Shown here: positions 47,830 to 61,538 of the stretch, piece by piece
Layout: each line of letters begins with the position of its first letter
Position numbering within the stretch: position 1 is the first letter of the stretch
Assembly (NCBI RefSeq): GCF_016623465.1
Contig: NZ_JAEDAJ010000001.1
Coordinates: forward strand, 875,963-939,962
Length of the DNA: 64,000 bases
Source: Brachybacterium halotolerans
GTDB taxonomy: Bacteria; Actinomycetota; Actinomycetes; Actinomycetales; Dermabacteraceae
Reading direction: 5' to 3'
Notes under the pieces: model-generated
Database searches by the model: none
What the model was told of the DNA's origin: nothing
Seen by the model: the letters and a program-made list of their open reading frames with translations, nothing else
Translations under genes and position numbers: made by a program

Positions 47830-49809
47830 TCAGACGAGCTCGACCGCGGCGTCCTTGTCGTTCAGGACGACGATCGGGGTGATCGTGGGATGCCCGTCCG
47901 CGCGCACCGCCGCCAGGTCGACGTGCAGCAGCGGGGTGCCCGCGACCACGCGATCGCCCGTGGCCACGAGGGTCTCGAAGCCTCGGCCCTGCATGGCGAC
48001 GGTGTCCAGCCCCACGTGGACGAGCACCTCCGTGCCGTCGTCCAGGGTGAGGGCGACGGCGTGGCCGGTGTCGAAGACGTGCTGCACGGTGCCCGCCGCC
48101 GGGGCGATGACCACGGCATCGGCGAGGTCCTCGGGCGGCTGCACGGCGATGCCGGGGCCCATGATCTCCTGTGCGAAGGTCGGGTCCGGGACGTCGGCGA
48201 GCGGCACGGCTGTGCCCTCGAGCGCCTGGCGCAGCCGCACCAGGTGGGTGGTGCGGGCCGCCGTGGCGACGCCGCCCGCCTCGTCGGCCGAGCCGGAGGC
48301 GGCGTCGGCCGAGCTGGAGGCGGAGCCGCCGTCGGACGCGGAGACGGGCTGCGCGCGGCCGCTCATGAGGTCGTCCATCGCATCCTTCACGAACTGGACG
48401 TTCGTTCCGTAGATGACCTGCACGGAGCCGCGACCGGGCTTCATGGTGCCTGCGGCGCCCGCCCTCTTCAGTGCGGCCTCATCGATGACGGAGGCGTCGG
48501 AGACCTGCATGCGCAGACGGGTCGCGCAGTTCTCGAGATCGAGGATGTTCTCGCGCCCGCCCAGGGCGGCCAGGAAGGCCGTGGCCGTGGCGAGGTACTT
48601 CGCGTCGCCCGTGGCCGTGCCTGCTGCATCCTCTGACGTCTCGTCCTCGGGGTCCCCGTCCTCACGGCCGATGGTCTTCAGGTCGAAGCGACGGATGATG
48701 AAGCGGAAGGACAGGAAGTAGACGACGAACCAGAACACGCCCATCACGGGCAGCGCCCAGGGGTTCTCGGCCATCGGGTTCACCCAGCCCAGCACGAGGT
48801 CGATGAACCCGCCGGAGAAGCCGAAGCCCATGCGGACCGGAAGCGCGGCCGTGATCGCCATCGAGATGCCCGTGAACAGTGCGTGCACCACGTACAGGCC
48901 CGGTGCCAGGAACATGAAGGAGAACTCGAGCGGCTCGGTGACGCCGACGAAGAAGGAGGCGATCGCGCTCGAGAGCAGCACGCCTGCGGCGATCTTGCGG
49001 CGACTGGTCTTCGCGGTCGTGTACATCGCGAGCGCGGCGCCGGGCAGGCCGAACATCATGATCGGGAAGAACCCGGCCATGTACTGGCCGGTCTCGCCGT
49101 AGGTCCCGCTGGCATTGAGGAAGTTGTTGAGGTCGTTGATGCCCGCCACGTCGAACCAGAACACCGAGTTGAGGGCGTGGTGCAGCCCGAAGGGGATGAG
49201 CAGGCGGTTGAGGAAGCCGTAGATGCCCACGCCCACGGGGCCGAGCGTCAGGATGAACTCGCCGAAGGCGACGAGACCGCCGAAGACCAGAGGCCACACG
49301 AAGAAGAGGACCAGGGCGAGCACGAGCGAGATGCCGGCGGTGACGATCGCGACCGAGCGCTTGCCGGAGAAGAACGAGAGCGCGTCGGGCAGCTTCGTGT
49401 CCTTGAAATGGTCGTACGTCCAGGCGCCGATGAGGCCGCAGATGATCCCGACGAACACGTTCTGGATCTGGTCGAAGGCGGGGTTCACCTGAGCTGTGTC
49501 GATGCCCTTGAACAGCGCGACGTTGTCGGGCGAGAGAAGAGTCGTCACCGTCAACCAGGACACGAGGCCCGCGAGGGCCGACGTCCCGTCGGGCTTGGTG
49601 GCCATGCCGATCGAGACACCGATCGCGAAGAGCAATGCCAGGTTGTCCAGCAGTGCGCCGCCGGCGGTCTTCAGGAAGACGCCCGCGATGTTGGTGTCGT
49701 TGCCCGTCGCCGTGAGGATCCAGTAGCCGAGGCCGCTGAGGATCGCGGCGACCGGGAGGACCGCCACCGGCAGCATCAGGGACCTGCCGAGTCGTTGGAA
49801 GAACTTCAT
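47830..49809 (-). CDS. nagE: PTS N-acetylglucosamine/glucose-type transporter, EIICBA
   Basis: A 659-residue fused permease. EIIC (residues 1-375) has about ten membrane segments with FGLHHALNSVFWF and FFVGVTEPLEFSFMFLAPGLYVVHA; EIIB carries C428 in LENCATRLRM; and EIIA carries H598 in LVHVGLDTVAM. The N-terminus MKFFQRLGRSLMLPVAVLPVAAIL is typical of NagE, so GlcNAc is the likely substrate, entering as GlcNAc-6-P. A Ser/Ala/Asp linker joins B and A. It has a dyad in its leader and a strong hairpin after its stop. HPr and EI are not in the window. Confidence 0.92.
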   Translation of the reverse strand: MKFFQRLGRSLMLPVAVLPVAAILSGLGYWILTATGNDTNIAGVFLKTAGGALLDNLALLFAIGVSIGMATKPDGTSALAGLVSWLTVTTLLSPDNVALFKGIDTAQVNPAFDQIQNVFVGIICGLIGAWTYDHFKDTKLPDALSFFSGKRSVAIVTAGISLVLALVLFFVWPLVFGGLVAFGEFILTLGPVGVGIYGFLNRLLIPFGLHHALNSVFWFDVAGINDLNNFLNASGTYGETGQYMAGFFPIMMFGLPGAALAMYTTAKTSRRKIAAGVLLSSAIASFFVGVTEPLEFSFMFLAPGLYVVHALFTGISMAITAALPVRMGFGFSGGFIDLVLGWVNPMAENPWALPVMGVFWFVVYFLSFRFIIRRFDLKTIGREDGDPEDETSEDAAGTATGDAKYLATATAFLAALGGRENILDLENCATRLRMQVSDASVIDEAALKRAGAAGTMKPGRGSVQVIYGTNVQFVKDAMDDLMSGRAQPVSASDGGSASSSADAASGSADEAGGVATAARTTHLVRLRQALEGTAVPLADVPDPTFAQEIMGPGIAVQPPEDLADAVVIAPAAGTVQHVFDTGHAVALTLDDGTEVLVHVGLDTVAMQGRGFETLVATGDRVVAGTPLLHVDLAAVRADGHPTITPIVVLNDKDAAVELV

Positions 49810-50228
49810 CGTTGCCTTACATGGGAAGGTGCGCCGCGCTGCTCAGCCATGAGCACTTGGACGGCAGAACGGTCAGAATCGGGTCCGATTGTGCAGGATC
49901 GGTCAGTCGCACGCGATGGGCTCGGTGGGCCGCGATGGGCCCGCGTCGCCCTGACGTGGGGACTCATCGGCGATCTCGGCGCTCGGGGTGTCGAGGGTCA
50001 CGGTGCACGGGTCGCTTCGCGCTGCTGGAGCGCGCACGGGCGAGGTGAGGCGTCCCGCTCCACGCCCGCTCGACCTCGACCACCAGCCGGGCCCGCGCGT
50101 ACGCTCGCCGCAGGCTCCCGAGTCCTCGAGCGCACGCTGCATCACTCCCGCGCTCTCCCGTGCCTGCGCGCCTCGTCGTCTCGGCTCCTCGTCCCTCGCG
50201 TCCCACCTCTCACTCCTCGGAGGTCCTC
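49810..50228. promoter_or_regulatory. 419-bp divergent region between nagE and the Ula-type PTS
   Basis: No gene is seen. On the nagE side a perfect dyad AATCGG-GT-CCGATT (49877-49890) is flanked by two GGTCAG words (49870-49875, 49900-49905), a plausible regulator site. On the EIIAB side the sequence is C-rich with little structure, and GGAGG lies 6 nt before ATG 50229. The length allows two independent promoters, but no clear -35/-10 pairs are visible. Confidence 0.45.
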
Positions 50229-51137
50229 ATGCCCTCGTCGTCCCCCTCGGCGATCGCCGATCTGCTGCCGGCCTCCGCGATCCGTCTCGACGTCCCCGTC
50301 GACGACCGCACCGCGGCGATCCGCGCGGCGGGCGACCTGCTCGTCGACGCCGGCATCGCCGGCGACTCGTATACCGACGCGATGATCCGCACGGTCGAGG
50401 AGCACGGGCCTTACATCGTCATCACCCCGGGCTTCGCGCTCGCGCACGCTCGCCCCGACGACTCCGTGGCCCGCACCGGCATGTCCTTCGCACGGCTCGC
50501 CCAGCCCGTGGTCTTCGGCCATGAGTCCAACGACCCGGTCACGATCGTCATGGGTCTCGCCGCGGCCGACGACGCCGCCCACCAGCAGGCCCTCGCCGCG
50601 CTCGCCGGGGCGCTGGCGGATCCGGGGCGCCGCGCCGCCCTGGACACGGCGTCCTCGGCTGACGAGGCCCTGGCGGCGCTCGACGGCAACACCACAGCGC
50701 CCGCCGCGGAGGATCGCGATGCCGCAGCCCCGTCGGAGACTGCCTCCACGAAGGCCGGCGCCGCCGAGCCGACCACCTCGGCCGAGCCGGTCGCTCCGGC
50801 CGACCCAGCCGCACTCGCCGCCCCGGCAGCGCACGCCGATGCCGTCCCCTCGAAGAACCTGATCCTCACCGTGTGCGGGAACGGCCTGGGCACGAGCCTG
50901 TTCCTGAAGAACACTGCGGAGCAGGTGCTGGACCGCTGGGGCTGGTCGCCGTACCTCACGGTCGAGGCGACCGACACGATCTCCGCGAAGGGCCGCGCGA
51001 AGGAGGCCGACTTCCTGCTGACCTCGGGCGCGATCGCCCAGACCCTCGGGGACGTGGGCGTGCCCGTCGAGGTGATCGAGAACTTCACCTCGCAGGCGGA
51101 GATCGACGCCGCCCTGCGCCGCCTCTACGCCGTCTGA
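50229..51137 (+). CDS. Fused PTS EIIA (type 2)-EIIB (ascorbate/lactose-type) protein
   Basis: A 302-residue cytoplasmic phosphotransfer protein. EIIA (about 1-150) resembles mannitol/fructose/ascorbate EIIA with phosphorylatable H73 in GFALAHARPDD. An Ala/Pro/Glu linker (about 155-207) leads to EIIB with C216 in LILTVCGNGLGTSLFLKNTAEQVL, like UlaB. Phosphate flows HPr-H73-C216-sugar at the EIIC protein downstream. Ula systems usually split A and B, so fusion is a minor variation. The operon contains only this gene and the EIIC, without the L-ascorbate-6-P lactonase. Confidence 0.88.
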   Translation: MPSSSPSAIADLLPASAIRLDVPVDDRTAAIRAAGDLLVDAGIAGDSYTDAMIRTVEEHGPYIVITPGFALAHARPDDSVARTGMSFARLAQPVVFGHESNDPVTIVMGLAAADDAAHQQALAALAGALADPGRRAALDTASSADEALAALDGNTTAPAAEDRDAAAPSETASTKAGAAEPTTSAEPVAPADPAALAAPAAHADAVPSKNLILTVCGNGLGTSLFLKNTAEQVLDRWGWSPYLTVEATDTISAKGRAKEADFLLTSGAIAQTLGDVGVPVEVIENFTSQAEIDAALRRLYAV

Positions 51138-51234
51138 CCTCCCCTCCCCCGCTCGCACCCTCCTCGGCTGCACTTCCCCGCCCGCTCTTCCCGCCCACTC
51201 TTCCCGTCCCCTCCTCACCCGCACGGAGCCCGTC

Positions 51235-52824
51235 ATGCACGTCCTCGTCGCGATCGCCCAGTTCCTCGTCAACGAGATCCTGAGCGTCCCCGCGTTCCTC
51301 ATCGGCATCATCACCGCGATCGGCCTGATCGCCCTGCGCAAGAGCGTCGGCCAGATCGCCGGCGGCGCGATCAAGGCGGTGCTCGGCTTCCTGCTCATCG
51401 GGGCCGGGGCGACACTTGTGACCGCCTCGCTCACTCCGCTCGGCGAGATGATCCAGGGCGCGCTCGGCGCGCAGGGCGTGGTGCCCACGAACGAGGCGAT
51501 CGCCGGCATCGCCCAGGAGCAGTTCGGCGCGCAGGTGTCCTGGCTGATGATCCTCGGGTTCGTGGTCGCGATCCTGCTCGCGCGCTTCACGCCGCTTCGC
51601 TACGTCTTCCTCACCGGCCACCACCTGCTGTTCATGGCAACCCTGATCACGATCGTCATGGCCTCGGCAGGCATGCCCTCCCCGGTCGTGGTGATCCTCG
51701 GTGCGGCGCTGCTCGGCGTGCTCATGGTGTCACTGCCCGCGCTCGCCCAGCCGTGGACCCGGCGCATCACGGGCGACGACTCGATCGCCATCGGCCACTT
51801 CGGCACCGCCGGGTACATCGCCGCGGGCAGCGTCGGCCGACTCGTCGATCCGAAGGGGAAGAGCCGCTCGACGGAGGACCTCAAGGTGCCCGAGTCACTG
51901 CGCTTCCTGCGCGACTCCATGGTCGCGACCGCGCTGTCGATGGTGCTCATGTACGTGATCGTCGCGATCGTCTACCTGGTGCGAGCCGGCGAGAGGACGG
52001 CGTTCACCGCCTTCGAGGGCGGGGCGACGAACGTGGGCAACTACCTCATGCAGTCGGTGACGCAGGGCCTGCAGTTCGGCATCGCCGTCGCGGTGATCCT
52101 GTTCGGCGTGCGCACGATCCTCGGTGAGCTCGTGCCCGCCTTCCAGGGCATCGCCGCCCGCGTGGTGCCCGGCGCGGTGCCGGCGCTGGACGCCCCGATC
52201 GTCTTCCCCTACGCCCAGAACGCCGTGCTCATCGGCTTCCTCTCGAGCTTCGTGGGCGGGCTCGTGGGCCTGCTCCTGCTCGGCACCGTGTTCGGCCCGC
52301 TGTTCGGGCTCGCGCTGATCCTGCCCGGGCTCGTCCCGCACTTCTTCACCGGCGGCGCTGCGGGCGTCTACGGCAATGCGACCGGCGGACGCCGCGGCGC
52401 CGTCGCGGGCGCGTTCGTCAACGGCCTGCTGGTCACCTTCCTGCCCGCGCTGCTGCTGAAGGTGCTGGGCACCTTCGGCTCGGCCAACACGACCTTCGGG
52501 GACACCGACTTCGGCTGGTTCGGCATCCTCATCGGCTACGGCGCGCGCCCCGGCGTGCTGCTGGGCTCGGTGATCCTCGCTGTGATCGGCCTGGTCATCC
52601 TCGGCGCGGCGATCACGGTGCAGAAGCGCGTCGTGGACCGCGGCTGGGATCCGGCGCCGACGCGCGCGAGCCTGGTCGAGGCCAGTGCGGCCGGCGGGAA
52701 CGCGACGGGCGCGTCCGACGGGGCCGACGGGGCCGACGCGGTCGCGGGCGGCACCGCCGCGCGCTACCCGCGCGTCGCGCCGCCGGTGGGCGCGCCGACT
52801 CCTCCCCCGCCTCCGGGGAGCTGA
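51235..52824 (+). CDS. PTS ascorbate-type EIIC (UlaA-like)
   Basis: A 529-residue integral permease with about eleven membrane segments. UlaA features are MHVLVAIAQFLVNEILSVPAFLIGIIT, VGQIAGGAIKAVLGFLLIGAG, FLTGHHLLFMA, APIVFPYAQNAVLIGFLSSFVGGL and HFFTGGAAGVYGNATGGRRGA. The substrate may be L-ascorbate or another anionic sugar, since the class also holds uncharacterised members. The last 60 residues are low-complexity and proline-rich (APPVGAPTPPPPPGS), unusual for the family. GAG-rich RBS is weak; ATG 51235 fits the family start. Confidence 0.9.
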   Translation: MHVLVAIAQFLVNEILSVPAFLIGIITAIGLIALRKSVGQIAGGAIKAVLGFLLIGAGATLVTASLTPLGEMIQGALGAQGVVPTNEAIAGIAQEQFGAQVSWLMILGFVVAILLARFTPLRYVFLTGHHLLFMATLITIVMASAGMPSPVVVILGAALLGVLMVSLPALAQPWTRRITGDDSIAIGHFGTAGYIAAGSVGRLVDPKGKSRSTEDLKVPESLRFLRDSMVATALSMVLMYVIVAIVYLVRAGERTAFTAFEGGATNVGNYLMQSVTQGLQFGIAVAVILFGVRTILGELVPAFQGIAARVVPGAVPALDAPIVFPYAQNAVLIGFLSSFVGGLVGLLLLGTVFGPLFGLALILPGLVPHFFTGGAAGVYGNATGGRRGAVAGAFVNGLLVTFLPALLLKVLGTFGSANTTFGDTDFGWFGILIGYGARPGVLLGSVILAVIGLVILGAAITVQKRVVDRGWDPAPTRASLVEASAAGGNATGASDGADGADAVAGGTAARYPRVAPPVGAPTPPPPPGS

Positions 52825-52940: not shown

Positions 52941-53013
52941 TTATGAGTTGCGGTGGGAAATGTACGCATCGCCCTTTCAGGGCTCAGCGGTCTTTTCCCA
53001 CCGCAACACATAG
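52941..53013. repeat. 20-bp inverted repeat with nested hairpin upstream of the XRE-MurA gene
   Basis: Left arm 52941-52960 and right arm 52994-53013 pair at 18 of 20 positions (core GTTGCGGTGGGAAA/TTTCCCACCGCAAC). The 33 bp loop holds a small stem GCCCT-TTC-AGGGC (52971-52983). It lies in the 444 bp gap between the ulaA-like gene and the MurA fusion. It could terminate ulaA transcription, or be a structured RNA or a transposable scrap. I see no gene elsewhere in the gap. Confidence 0.8.
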
Positions 53014-53238: not shown

Positions 53239-53258
53239 GTATCTCATAGATGAGATAC
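53239..53258. promoter_or_regulatory. Perfect palindrome, candidate autoregulatory operator of the XRE-MurA gene
   Basis: GTATCTCATAGATGAGATAC is a 9+2+9 perfect inverted repeat ending 10 bp before ATG 53269. It overlaps the likely -10 box TACGCT (53256-53261), which is 7 nt before the ATG, with no ribosome site, so the transcript is probably leaderless. XRE regulators commonly bind such dyads. Binding by the encoded HTH would block its own promoter; this is inference. Confidence 0.7.
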
Positions 53259-53268
53259 GCTCCCGAGC

Positions 53269-54960
53269 ATGACGACGACCGACGAGTTCACCTCGCAGAC
53301 CCGTCCCGCTGACGGCTCCTCCGCGCCTTCGGACGGCTCCTCCGTGTCTTCCACGCCCTCCACACCCTCCGCCCCCTCCGCTCCTTCCGCACAGCTCGCC
53401 GCGGCGTCCGCCGCCGCCGGCGCCCGTTCGGGCGACCAGGACTACCGGAACGAGATCGGCCGCCTCATCCGCGACGCCCGTCTGCACTCGGGCCTCACGC
53501 AGGCGCAGCTCGCCGAGAAGCTCTCCACCTCGCAGAGCACGATCAACCGGATCGAGAAGGGCCAGCAGAACCTGACGCTCGACACCCTCGCGAAGATCGG
53601 CGAGGCCCTCGATTCGGGGATCGTCGGCATCGGTTCGTCCGCCCCCTCGCACCTGCGCGTGCAGGGCGGCACCACGCTGAGCGGCGCGATCGACGTGAAG
53701 ACCTCGAAGAACGCCGGGGTCGCGCTGCTGTGCGCCTCGCTGCTGAACCGCGGCACCACCGTGCTGCGCCGCGTCGCGCGCATCGAGGAGGTCAACCGTC
53801 TGCTCGAGGTGCTCTCCTCGATCGGCGTGCGCACCCGCTGGCTGAACGAGAACAACGACCTCGAGATCATCGTGCCCGAGCACCTGGATCTGGCCTCGAT
53901 CGACGCCGGCGCCGCCCGTCGGACCCGCAGCATCATCATGTTCCTGGGTCCGCTCATGCACCGCGAGCAGCAGTTCCAGCTCCCCTACGCGGGCGGCTGC
54001 GACCTGGGCACCCGCACCGTCGAGCCCCACATGACCGCGCTGCGGCCCTTCGGCCTCGAGGTCGTCGCGACCGAGGGCCACTACCAGGCCACCGCGAGCC
54101 CGGGCGCCGGGCCCCGTCGGCCGATCGTCCTCACCGAGCGCGGGGACACCGTCACCGAGAACGCGCTGATGGCCGCCGCCCGCTACAAGGGCGAGACGAT
54201 CATCCGCAACGCGAGCCCGAACTACATGGTGCAGGACCTCTGCTTCTTCCTCGAGAAGCTCGGCGTCGAGATCGAGGGCATCGGCACCACGACCCTGCGG
54301 GTGCACGGGAAGTCGGAGATCCGTGCCGACGTCGACTACGCCCCCAGCGAGGACCCGATCGAGGCGATGAGCCTGATCGCCGCCGCGATCGTCACGAAGT
54401 CCTCGATCACCGTGCGCCGCGTGCCCATCGAGTTCATGGAGATCGAGCTCGCGGTCCTGGAGGACATGGGCTTCACCTACGACCGCACCGAGGAGTACCT
54501 CGCGGCCAACGGCAAGACCCGTCTCGTGGACATCACCACGCATGTCTCGCAGCTGCGGGCCCCGATCGACAAGATCCACCCGATGCCCTTCCCGGGCCTG
54601 AACATCGACAACCTGCCCTTCTTCGCGGTGATCGCCGCGACGGCCGAGGGGCAGACCCAGCTGCACGACTGGGTGTACGAGAACCGCGCGATCTACCTGA
54701 CCGACCTCAACAAGCTCGGCGCGCGCGTGCAGCTCATGGACCCGCACCGCGTTCTCATCGACGGCCCGACCCACTGGAGCGGCGCGGAGCTGGTGTGCCC
54801 GCCGGCGCTGCGTCCGGCGGTCGTCATCCTGCTGGCGATGCTCGCGGCGAAGGGCACCTCGGTGCTGCGCAACGTCTACGTCATCAACCGCGGTTACGAG
54901 GACCTCGCCCAGCGCCTGAACGCGCTCGGTGCGCAGATCGAGACGTTCCGGGACATCTGA
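53269..54960 (+). CDS. XRE-family HTH fused to UDP-GlcNAc 1-carboxyvinyltransferase (MurA)
   Basis: A 563-residue two-part protein. After a Ser/Pro/Ala-rich N-terminus, residues 58-115 form a Cro/C1-type HTH (RLIRDARLHSGLTQAQLAEKL, STSQSTINRIEKG). Residues 128-563 are a full MurA fold: K147-N148 in SKNAG, active-site C244 in GGCDLGTRTVEPH, D447 in PGLNIDNLPFF and the C-terminal VINRGYEDLAQRLNALGA. MurA adds enolpyruvate from PEP to UDP-GlcNAc, the first committed step of peptidoglycan synthesis. The fusion could let a wall enzyme sense its substrate and control transcription. Whether this is the only MurA of the cell is unknown. Confidence 0.9.
   Translation: MTTTDEFTSQTRPADGSSAPSDGSSVSSTPSTPSAPSAPSAQLAAASAAAGARSGDQDYRNEIGRLIRDARLHSGLTQAQLAEKLSTSQSTINRIEKGQQNLTLDTLAKIGEALDSGIVGIGSSAPSHLRVQGGTTLSGAIDVKTSKNAGVALLCASLLNRGTTVLRRVARIEEVNRLLEVLSSIGVRTRWLNENNDLEIIVPEHLDLASIDAGAARRTRSIIMFLGPLMHREQQFQLPYAGGCDLGTRTVEPHMTALRPFGLEVVATEGHYQATASPGAGPRRPIVLTERGDTVTENALMAAARYKGETIIRNASPNYMVQDLCFFLEKLGVEIEGIGTTTLRVHGKSEIRADVDYAPSEDPIEAMSLIAAAIVTKSSITVRRVPIEFMEIELAVLEDMGFTYDRTEEYLAANGKTRLVDITTHVSQLRAPIDKIHPMPFPGLNIDNLPFFAVIAATAEGQTQLHDWVYENRAIYLTDLNKLGARVQLMDPHRVLIDGPTHWSGAELVCPPALRPAVVILLAMLAAKGTSVLRNVYVINRGYEDLAQRLNALGAQIETFRDI

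Positions 54961-58610: not shown

Positions 58611-61538
<2,928 letters not shown>

Follow-up and report, generated by a model that had tools for sequence, protein, structure and literature searches.

MurA commits UDP-GlcNAc to the cell wall and is the target of fosfomycin. The window analyzed here, i.e., the whole stretch of 64,000 nucleotides from Brachybacterium halotolerans, contains a gene in which a MurA enzyme is joined to a DNA-binding domain of the Cro/C1 (XRE) type, with an inverted repeat directly ahead of its start codon. What would an enzyme of cell wall synthesis do with such a domain, and where would it bind? The features that bear on this question are the following:

53239..53258, no strand assigned: predicted operator, the dyad GTATCTCAT-AG-ATGAGATAC, which recurs upstream of relatives
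53256..53261, plus strand: predicted −10 box TACGCT (TANNNT), beginning 13 nt ahead of the ATG, placed by conservation
53269..54960, plus strand: xre-murA gene, 563 aa, ATG at 53269 and stop at 54960 (ORF and Pfam)
53278..53433, plus strand: Ser/Pro/Ala-rich N-terminal extension, residues about 4–55
53467..53616, plus strand: Cro/C1 (XRE) helix-turn-helix (HTH) domain, residues 67–116 (Pfam HTH_3)
53527..53562, plus strand: recognition-helix region TSQSTINRIEKG, residues 87–98, aligned to other Cro/C1 HTHs
53617..53658, plus strand: short linker, residues 117–130 (alignment)
53659..54918, plus strand: MurA domain (EPSP synthase fold), residues 131–550, with K147, N148, R220, C244, R249, D447, R515 and R541 (Pfam)

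The initial annotation of this locus had described an HTH and a complete MurA with K147, N148, C244 and D447 in one ORF, and this was borne out by Pfam and by alignment. HTH_3 was detected at residues 67–116 with an E-value of 1.6e-14 and a score of 54.1 bits, compared to a cut-off of 23, and the EPSP_synthase profile matched residues 131–550 over its full length (1–417 of 417; E = 8.7e-46). The Ser/Pro/Ala-rich extension was missing or far shorter among the relatives compared. Judged from the gaps to the adjoining genes, xre-murA looks monocistronic. The expectation that the fused layout might already be present in databases also proved correct: the best 120 of at least 8000 proteins scored all have both domains, and the named entries among these 120 are mostly annotated as plain MurA. 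The top protein match among those listed was from Brachybacterium kimchii (P0001; 95% identical).

The dyad had been described as a perfect 20 bp palindrome. It does exist, and it is made up of perfect 9 bp arms flanking an AG that is not itself palindromic. The core operator of the family, TATCTCA-N4-TGAGATA, corresponds to positions 53240–53257 in the window. As had been proposed, the dyad lies over the likely −10 box, T53256 and A53257 being common to TACGCT and the right half-site. A scan upstream of xre-murA with an E. coli-type promoter model returned no promoter, and a Shine–Dalgarno sequence was absent between the dyad and the ATG. The lack of a Shine–Dalgarno sequence, together with the position of the first T of TANNNT 13 nt before the ATG, leads to the prediction of a leaderless mRNA. 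According to the accessible part of one report, TANNNT about 12 bp upstream of the start marks leaderless bacterial genes (PMC3160421), and 21.0% of the primary transcription starts in S. coelicolor are given as leaderless in the corresponding part of another (PMC4895711).

Conservation of the palindrome upstream of orthologues, which the initial annotation had put forward as a check, was seen in all 80 loci fetched by protein similarity (including Brachybacterium, Aeromicrobium, Nocardioides, Streptomyces and Kribbella), in each of which a dyad matching at least 11 of the 14 core positions precedes the gene. A larger set with further genomes comprised 184 rows, or 175 non-identical loci once nine duplicates had been dropped. 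With the operator called present at ≥10 of 14 core bases, it was found in 172 of the 175 loci, and at ≥12 in 159. The scores were distributed as 14 (62 loci), 13 (82), 12 (15), 11 (11) and 10 (2). Among 3680 shuffled controls, 79 reached at least 10, five at least 11 and one 12, and the weak operators, scoring 10–11 in 13 of the 172 loci, are to be read with the fact that shuffles sometimes get to 10. The start codon lay 26–31 nt from the start of the dyad in 173 of 175 loci (ATG in 150, GTG in 23); since the start codon was located via the dyad, this offset is partly circular, yet the protein N-termini then align. In 171 of 175 loci a TANNNT begins 11–15 nt ahead of the start codon, and in 161 the distance is 12–13 nt. 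No Shine–Dalgarno-like sequence was seen in any of the 173 loci with a located start.

A strong inverted repeat directly before a start codon might also act as an RNA hairpin or a translational control element. However, the dyad overlaps the TANNNT that begins 12–13 nt before the start in those 161 loci and would thus fall upstream of the transcript, and its changes track the HTH helix, as described below. We consider a hairpin highly improbable, and this reading was rejected because the dyad sits in the promoter.

If the HTH recognizes the dyad, the two might be expected to vary together. The operator was present in all 172 loci with an intact recognition helix, and the three loci without an operator were exactly those with a degraded helix (L119 and L120) or a deleted HTH (L169). 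L119 and L120, both from one genus, read MTEQD and MTGTD where most loci have TSQSA; both retain TACGAT 13 nt before the ATG, and the HTH of L120 is still detected by Pfam despite its degraded helix. In L169 the HTH is lost, and L133, of the same genus, has both HTH and dyad. For the losses in L120 and L169, which belong to the same family, the tree needs two changes, of which well-supported branches force one (L119 being left out of this count); the losses differ in kind, with a substitution in L120 and a deletion in L169.

Two helix variants, found in five loci, are accompanied by altered bases in both half-sites. The helix TTQSV occurs in a single locus, in which both half-sites read TATCGCA (1 of 1, compared to none of the 171 other operator-bearing loci). 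The helix TSQGA is paired with xAACTCA in both half-sites in four of four loci, all from one family; elsewhere this arrangement was seen in one of 168 loci, which has the helix SSQSA. Because xAACTCA is also found in a single half-site in 26 of the 160 loci with the ordinary TSQSA helix, the TSQGA pairing is a preference and no strict code.

The nearly constant geometry across all 172 helix-intact loci, the joint absence in three and the matched changes in five support the earlier suggestion that the HTH reads the dyad and represses its own gene. From these sequence comparisons, we consider it very likely that the MurA enzyme directly autorepresses its own gene through its XRE domain. The N-terminal XRE domain, presumably as a dimer, would bind TATCTCA-N4-TGAGATA, the right half of which contributes to the predicted −10 box of a promoter that would start a leaderless transcript at or beside the ATG. 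When enzyme is ample, the −10 box would be covered and RNA polymerase blocked, and the resulting negative feedback would hold MurA at a steady level. Repression rather than activation is favored by the overlap between the operator and the −10 box. XRE-MurA and its operator look like a self-contained autoregulatory module, and most likely a fused enzyme-repressor with a promoter-overlapping site turns down its own gene in many actinobacteria. The natural variants, with the helix lost, the helix changed or the operator decayed, amount to a ready-made experiment.

The initial annotation had also raised the possibility of control over other wall genes, which found no support. At ≤2 mismatches, a level that would miss weaker sites, 14 genomes contained 17 sites, of which 14 were at xre-murA itself; the remaining three were divided between G619 (one) and G483 (two), and the reversed control pattern gave no sites in the same 14 genomes. 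In the window genome (3.85 Mb), the dyad was the sole match within 3 mismatches of 18, with no matches to the reversed pattern at that level, and there was no operator site at the canonical murA. In a sample of the phylum (246 genomes), 12 genomes have the gene and nine of these have a site with ≤1 mismatch at it. Such a site was also present in 38 of the 234 genomes that lack the gene (the reversed control matched in 14 of 246). The motif alone is therefore no proof of XRE-MurA. A second site with ≤1 mismatch in the Streptomyces-like genome of locus L135 (G182), near a gene identified by eye as SsgA-like, was taken as probable chance, since second sites occur in few of the genomes scanned.

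The similar sites in gene-less genomes are one reason to ask whether the dyad serves another regulator, with the HTH of MurA being a relic or acting elsewhere. Another comes from Streptomyces coelicolor, in which SCO5998 (MurA2) has a predicted DmdR1 site, according to the accessible part of PMC12161575, and a SigB-dependent promoter, according to that of PMC8346170. SCO5998 is probably the Streptomyces member of the fused family, since the SigB promoter sequence published for it turns up ahead of Streptomyces loci of the family; in 4 of the 50 loci examined, this sequence lies about 350 nt ahead of the start. Against another regulator, the operator and the recognition helix are lost together and altered together, and the 14 gene-bearing genomes hold little beyond the gene's own site. 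We therefore regard a separate regulator as quite unlikely and retain direct autorepression by the fused protein.

Whether the fused protein is still a MurA is a separate question. The window protein passed the cut-off of PRK09369 (NCBIfam “UDP-N-acetylglucosamine 1-carboxyvinyltransferase”; 325.7 bits compared to 297), but fell below that of the murA equivalog TIGR01072 (310.3 compared to 392.7 bits), and the latter was not reached by any fused copy listed in a search of 34 genomes. Compared to E. coli MurA (1uae), the fused protein has the same fold and equivalents of ten catalytic residues (K22, N23, R91, C115, R120, D231, D305, R331, R371 and R397), all invariant in 174 of 174 sequences when the split L119 is left out. 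Across the 184 rows, the catalytic K, N, R, C, R, D, R and R are kept in 183–184, L119 accounting for the gap. (The fused gene of L119, in genome G133, is broken across two frames, through a sequencing error or a true break, and no other MurA was found in that genome.) The fused protein differs from the E. coli enzyme in the added N-terminal HTH and in the replacement of S162-V163-G164 and D369. The UDP-pyrophosphate loop (PSVGAT) is altered throughout the family, with V163-G164 changed to D-T in 174 of 174 sequences and S162 to G in 173 of 174. The Asp at the D369 position (E. coli numbering) is gone in 174 of 174; the column holds P, next to an inserted A, when E. coli MurA is aligned, and A in an alignment without E. 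coli MurA. In E. coli MurA, D369 tolerates only D or E and G164 no replacement, according to the accessible part of PMC9842644. Since the fused family replaces positions at which E. coli MurA hardly tolerates change, its chemistry or UDP binding may differ from that of the E. coli enzyme.

These replacements and the missed TIGR01072 cut-off could mean that the domain has become a sensor or a different transferase and no longer acts as a peptidoglycan enolpyruvyl transferase. We find this quite unlikely given the invariant catalytic residues and the genomes in which the fused protein is the only MurA found. The initial annotation had suggested looking for a second, HTH-free murA. The window genome does have one, a canonical MurA (G000:C1:550022-551317) that is 33% identical to the fused copy. 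No second MurA, however, was found by the TIGR01072 search in 31 of 34 genomes, most of which had been chosen for having one MurA match in an earlier search; the three with a canonical MurA were G000, G347 and G023. In 23 of the 31 genomes there was an extra weak TIGR01072 match of ≤50.8 bits, perhaps AroA. A murB match was present in 31 of the 31, above the cut-off in 30. From the lack of another MurA and the presence of murB in these 31 genomes, the fused protein is very probably a working MurA and, on the strength of the genomes with no other MurA, can be called a divergent class of MurA despite missing the TIGR01072 cut-off. The genomes with a lone MurA appear to include Aeromicrobium, Nocardioides and Mumia, judging from sequences in common with named loci. 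A search across the order identified a family member in 63 of 218 genomes, one of which (G680) lacks the HTH; in 29 of the 63 (including the split copy in G133), no second MurA was found at E ≤ 1e-20 among the up to six candidates scored per genome. That the apparently sole MurA of some bacteria has such a divergent active site bears on the question of which residues MurA truly needs. We also noted that, in the canonical MurA of G347 (L140; C2:299269-300510), the catalytic Cys115 is replaced by Asp; this genome also has a fused copy.

Autorepression by the fused protein could be refined further if occupancy by UDP-GlcNAc, PEP or product altered DNA binding, in which case expression would track precursor supply or MurA inhibition and the protein would be a trigger enzyme, as the initial annotation had proposed. 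The HTH and the catalytic residues are retained together in nearly all loci, BirA and PutA offer precedents, and the short linker has G122, P126 and H128 invariant in 46 aligned sequences, which is compatible with such gating. On the other hand, some of the more distant loci (e.g., L133 and L169) differ at these linker positions, and plain feedback accounts for all observations. We see ligand gating as a real possibility, with chances somewhat short of even. More tentative is the broader proposal of a one-gene circuit of enzyme, sensor and repressor that crosses bacterial orders with its operator, and in which the remodeled UDP-binding loop would couple ligand to the HTH.

How tightly the gene is repressed may vary between lineages. 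In family f100 (16 genomes; loci L170, L173–L181, L185–L187, L189, L192 and L195), the operator scored 10–11 in all five genomes without a second MurA match and 13–14 in all 11 with two matches; the tree suggests that this pattern reflects about two events. Such decayed operators would fit relieved repression where the fused gene carries the whole MurA load; other lineages without a second MurA retain good operators.

Enzymes that repress transcription through a DNA-binding domain of their own include BirA, PutA and NadR, and with BirA and PutA, synthesis is matched to demand. XRE-MurA likewise combines an enzyme with its own DNA-binding domain, but differs in the enzyme, the pathway and the HTH; its own gene is the only detectable target, and ligand gating is plausible. 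The operator of the antitoxin repressor HipB is TATCC-N8-GGATA, which has the outer spacing TATC-N10-GATA in common with the XRE-MurA operator but differs in the inner bases. The HTH itself is similar to those of HipB-type Cro/C1 antitoxin repressors (TIGR03070; PDB 4z5h and 4yg4), although it falls below the TIGR03070 cut-off and, unlike HipB, is fused to an enzyme. A literature search covering few subscription journals found no account of the fused XRE-MurA, its HTH or its operator, nor a description of how actinobacteria set the level of MurA. SCO5998 is presented as a plain transferase in the accessible parts of PMC12161575 and PMC8346170, which mention neither an HTH nor an operator. Enzyme-repressors as such are already known, and it is the autoregulation of a fused XRE-MurA that was not found described. 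If true, a self-targeting enzyme-repressor would explain steady synthesis of wall precursors where the fused protein is the only MurA.

In Brachybacterium, the gene is present in 8 of 14 genomes. Nine Brachybacterium copies cluster together on the tree (support 96), nested within a set of 21 rows (support 97) that includes Aeromicrobium, Mumia, another member of the Nocardioidaceae and one f65 genome from the order of the window. This grouping with Nocardioidaceae suggests that the Brachybacterium copy was acquired from them by horizontal transfer, operator included. A plasmid search (E ≤ 1e-60) yielded two records, 2.8 and 11.9 Mb in size, and a phage search (E ≤ 1e-20) yielded 38 records, all at <60% identity, with five listed at 30–31%.

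Several further observations were made in passing. Six Streptomyces loci (L047, L054, L060, L077, L080 and L086) have another palindrome, TATCTCGATGTCGAGATA, about 70–400 nt upstream of the start of the match. An ARAGORN tRNA call at 59347–59434 in the window, with an undetermined anticodon, lies inside an ORF and is probably false. Between a PTS permease gene and xre-murA, an imperfect 34-nt inverted repeat (52942–53012; 79% complementary, with a 3-nt center), the left part of which is found a single time in the window when up to 3 mismatches are allowed, is perhaps a terminator or a small repeat. Beside xre-murA, at 47830–52824, are two PTS loci: the minus strand encodes an EIIC/EIIB/EIIA_1 protein, the plus strand EIIA_2-EIIB and EIIC-GAT; the PTS uses up PEP, the co-substrate of MurA.
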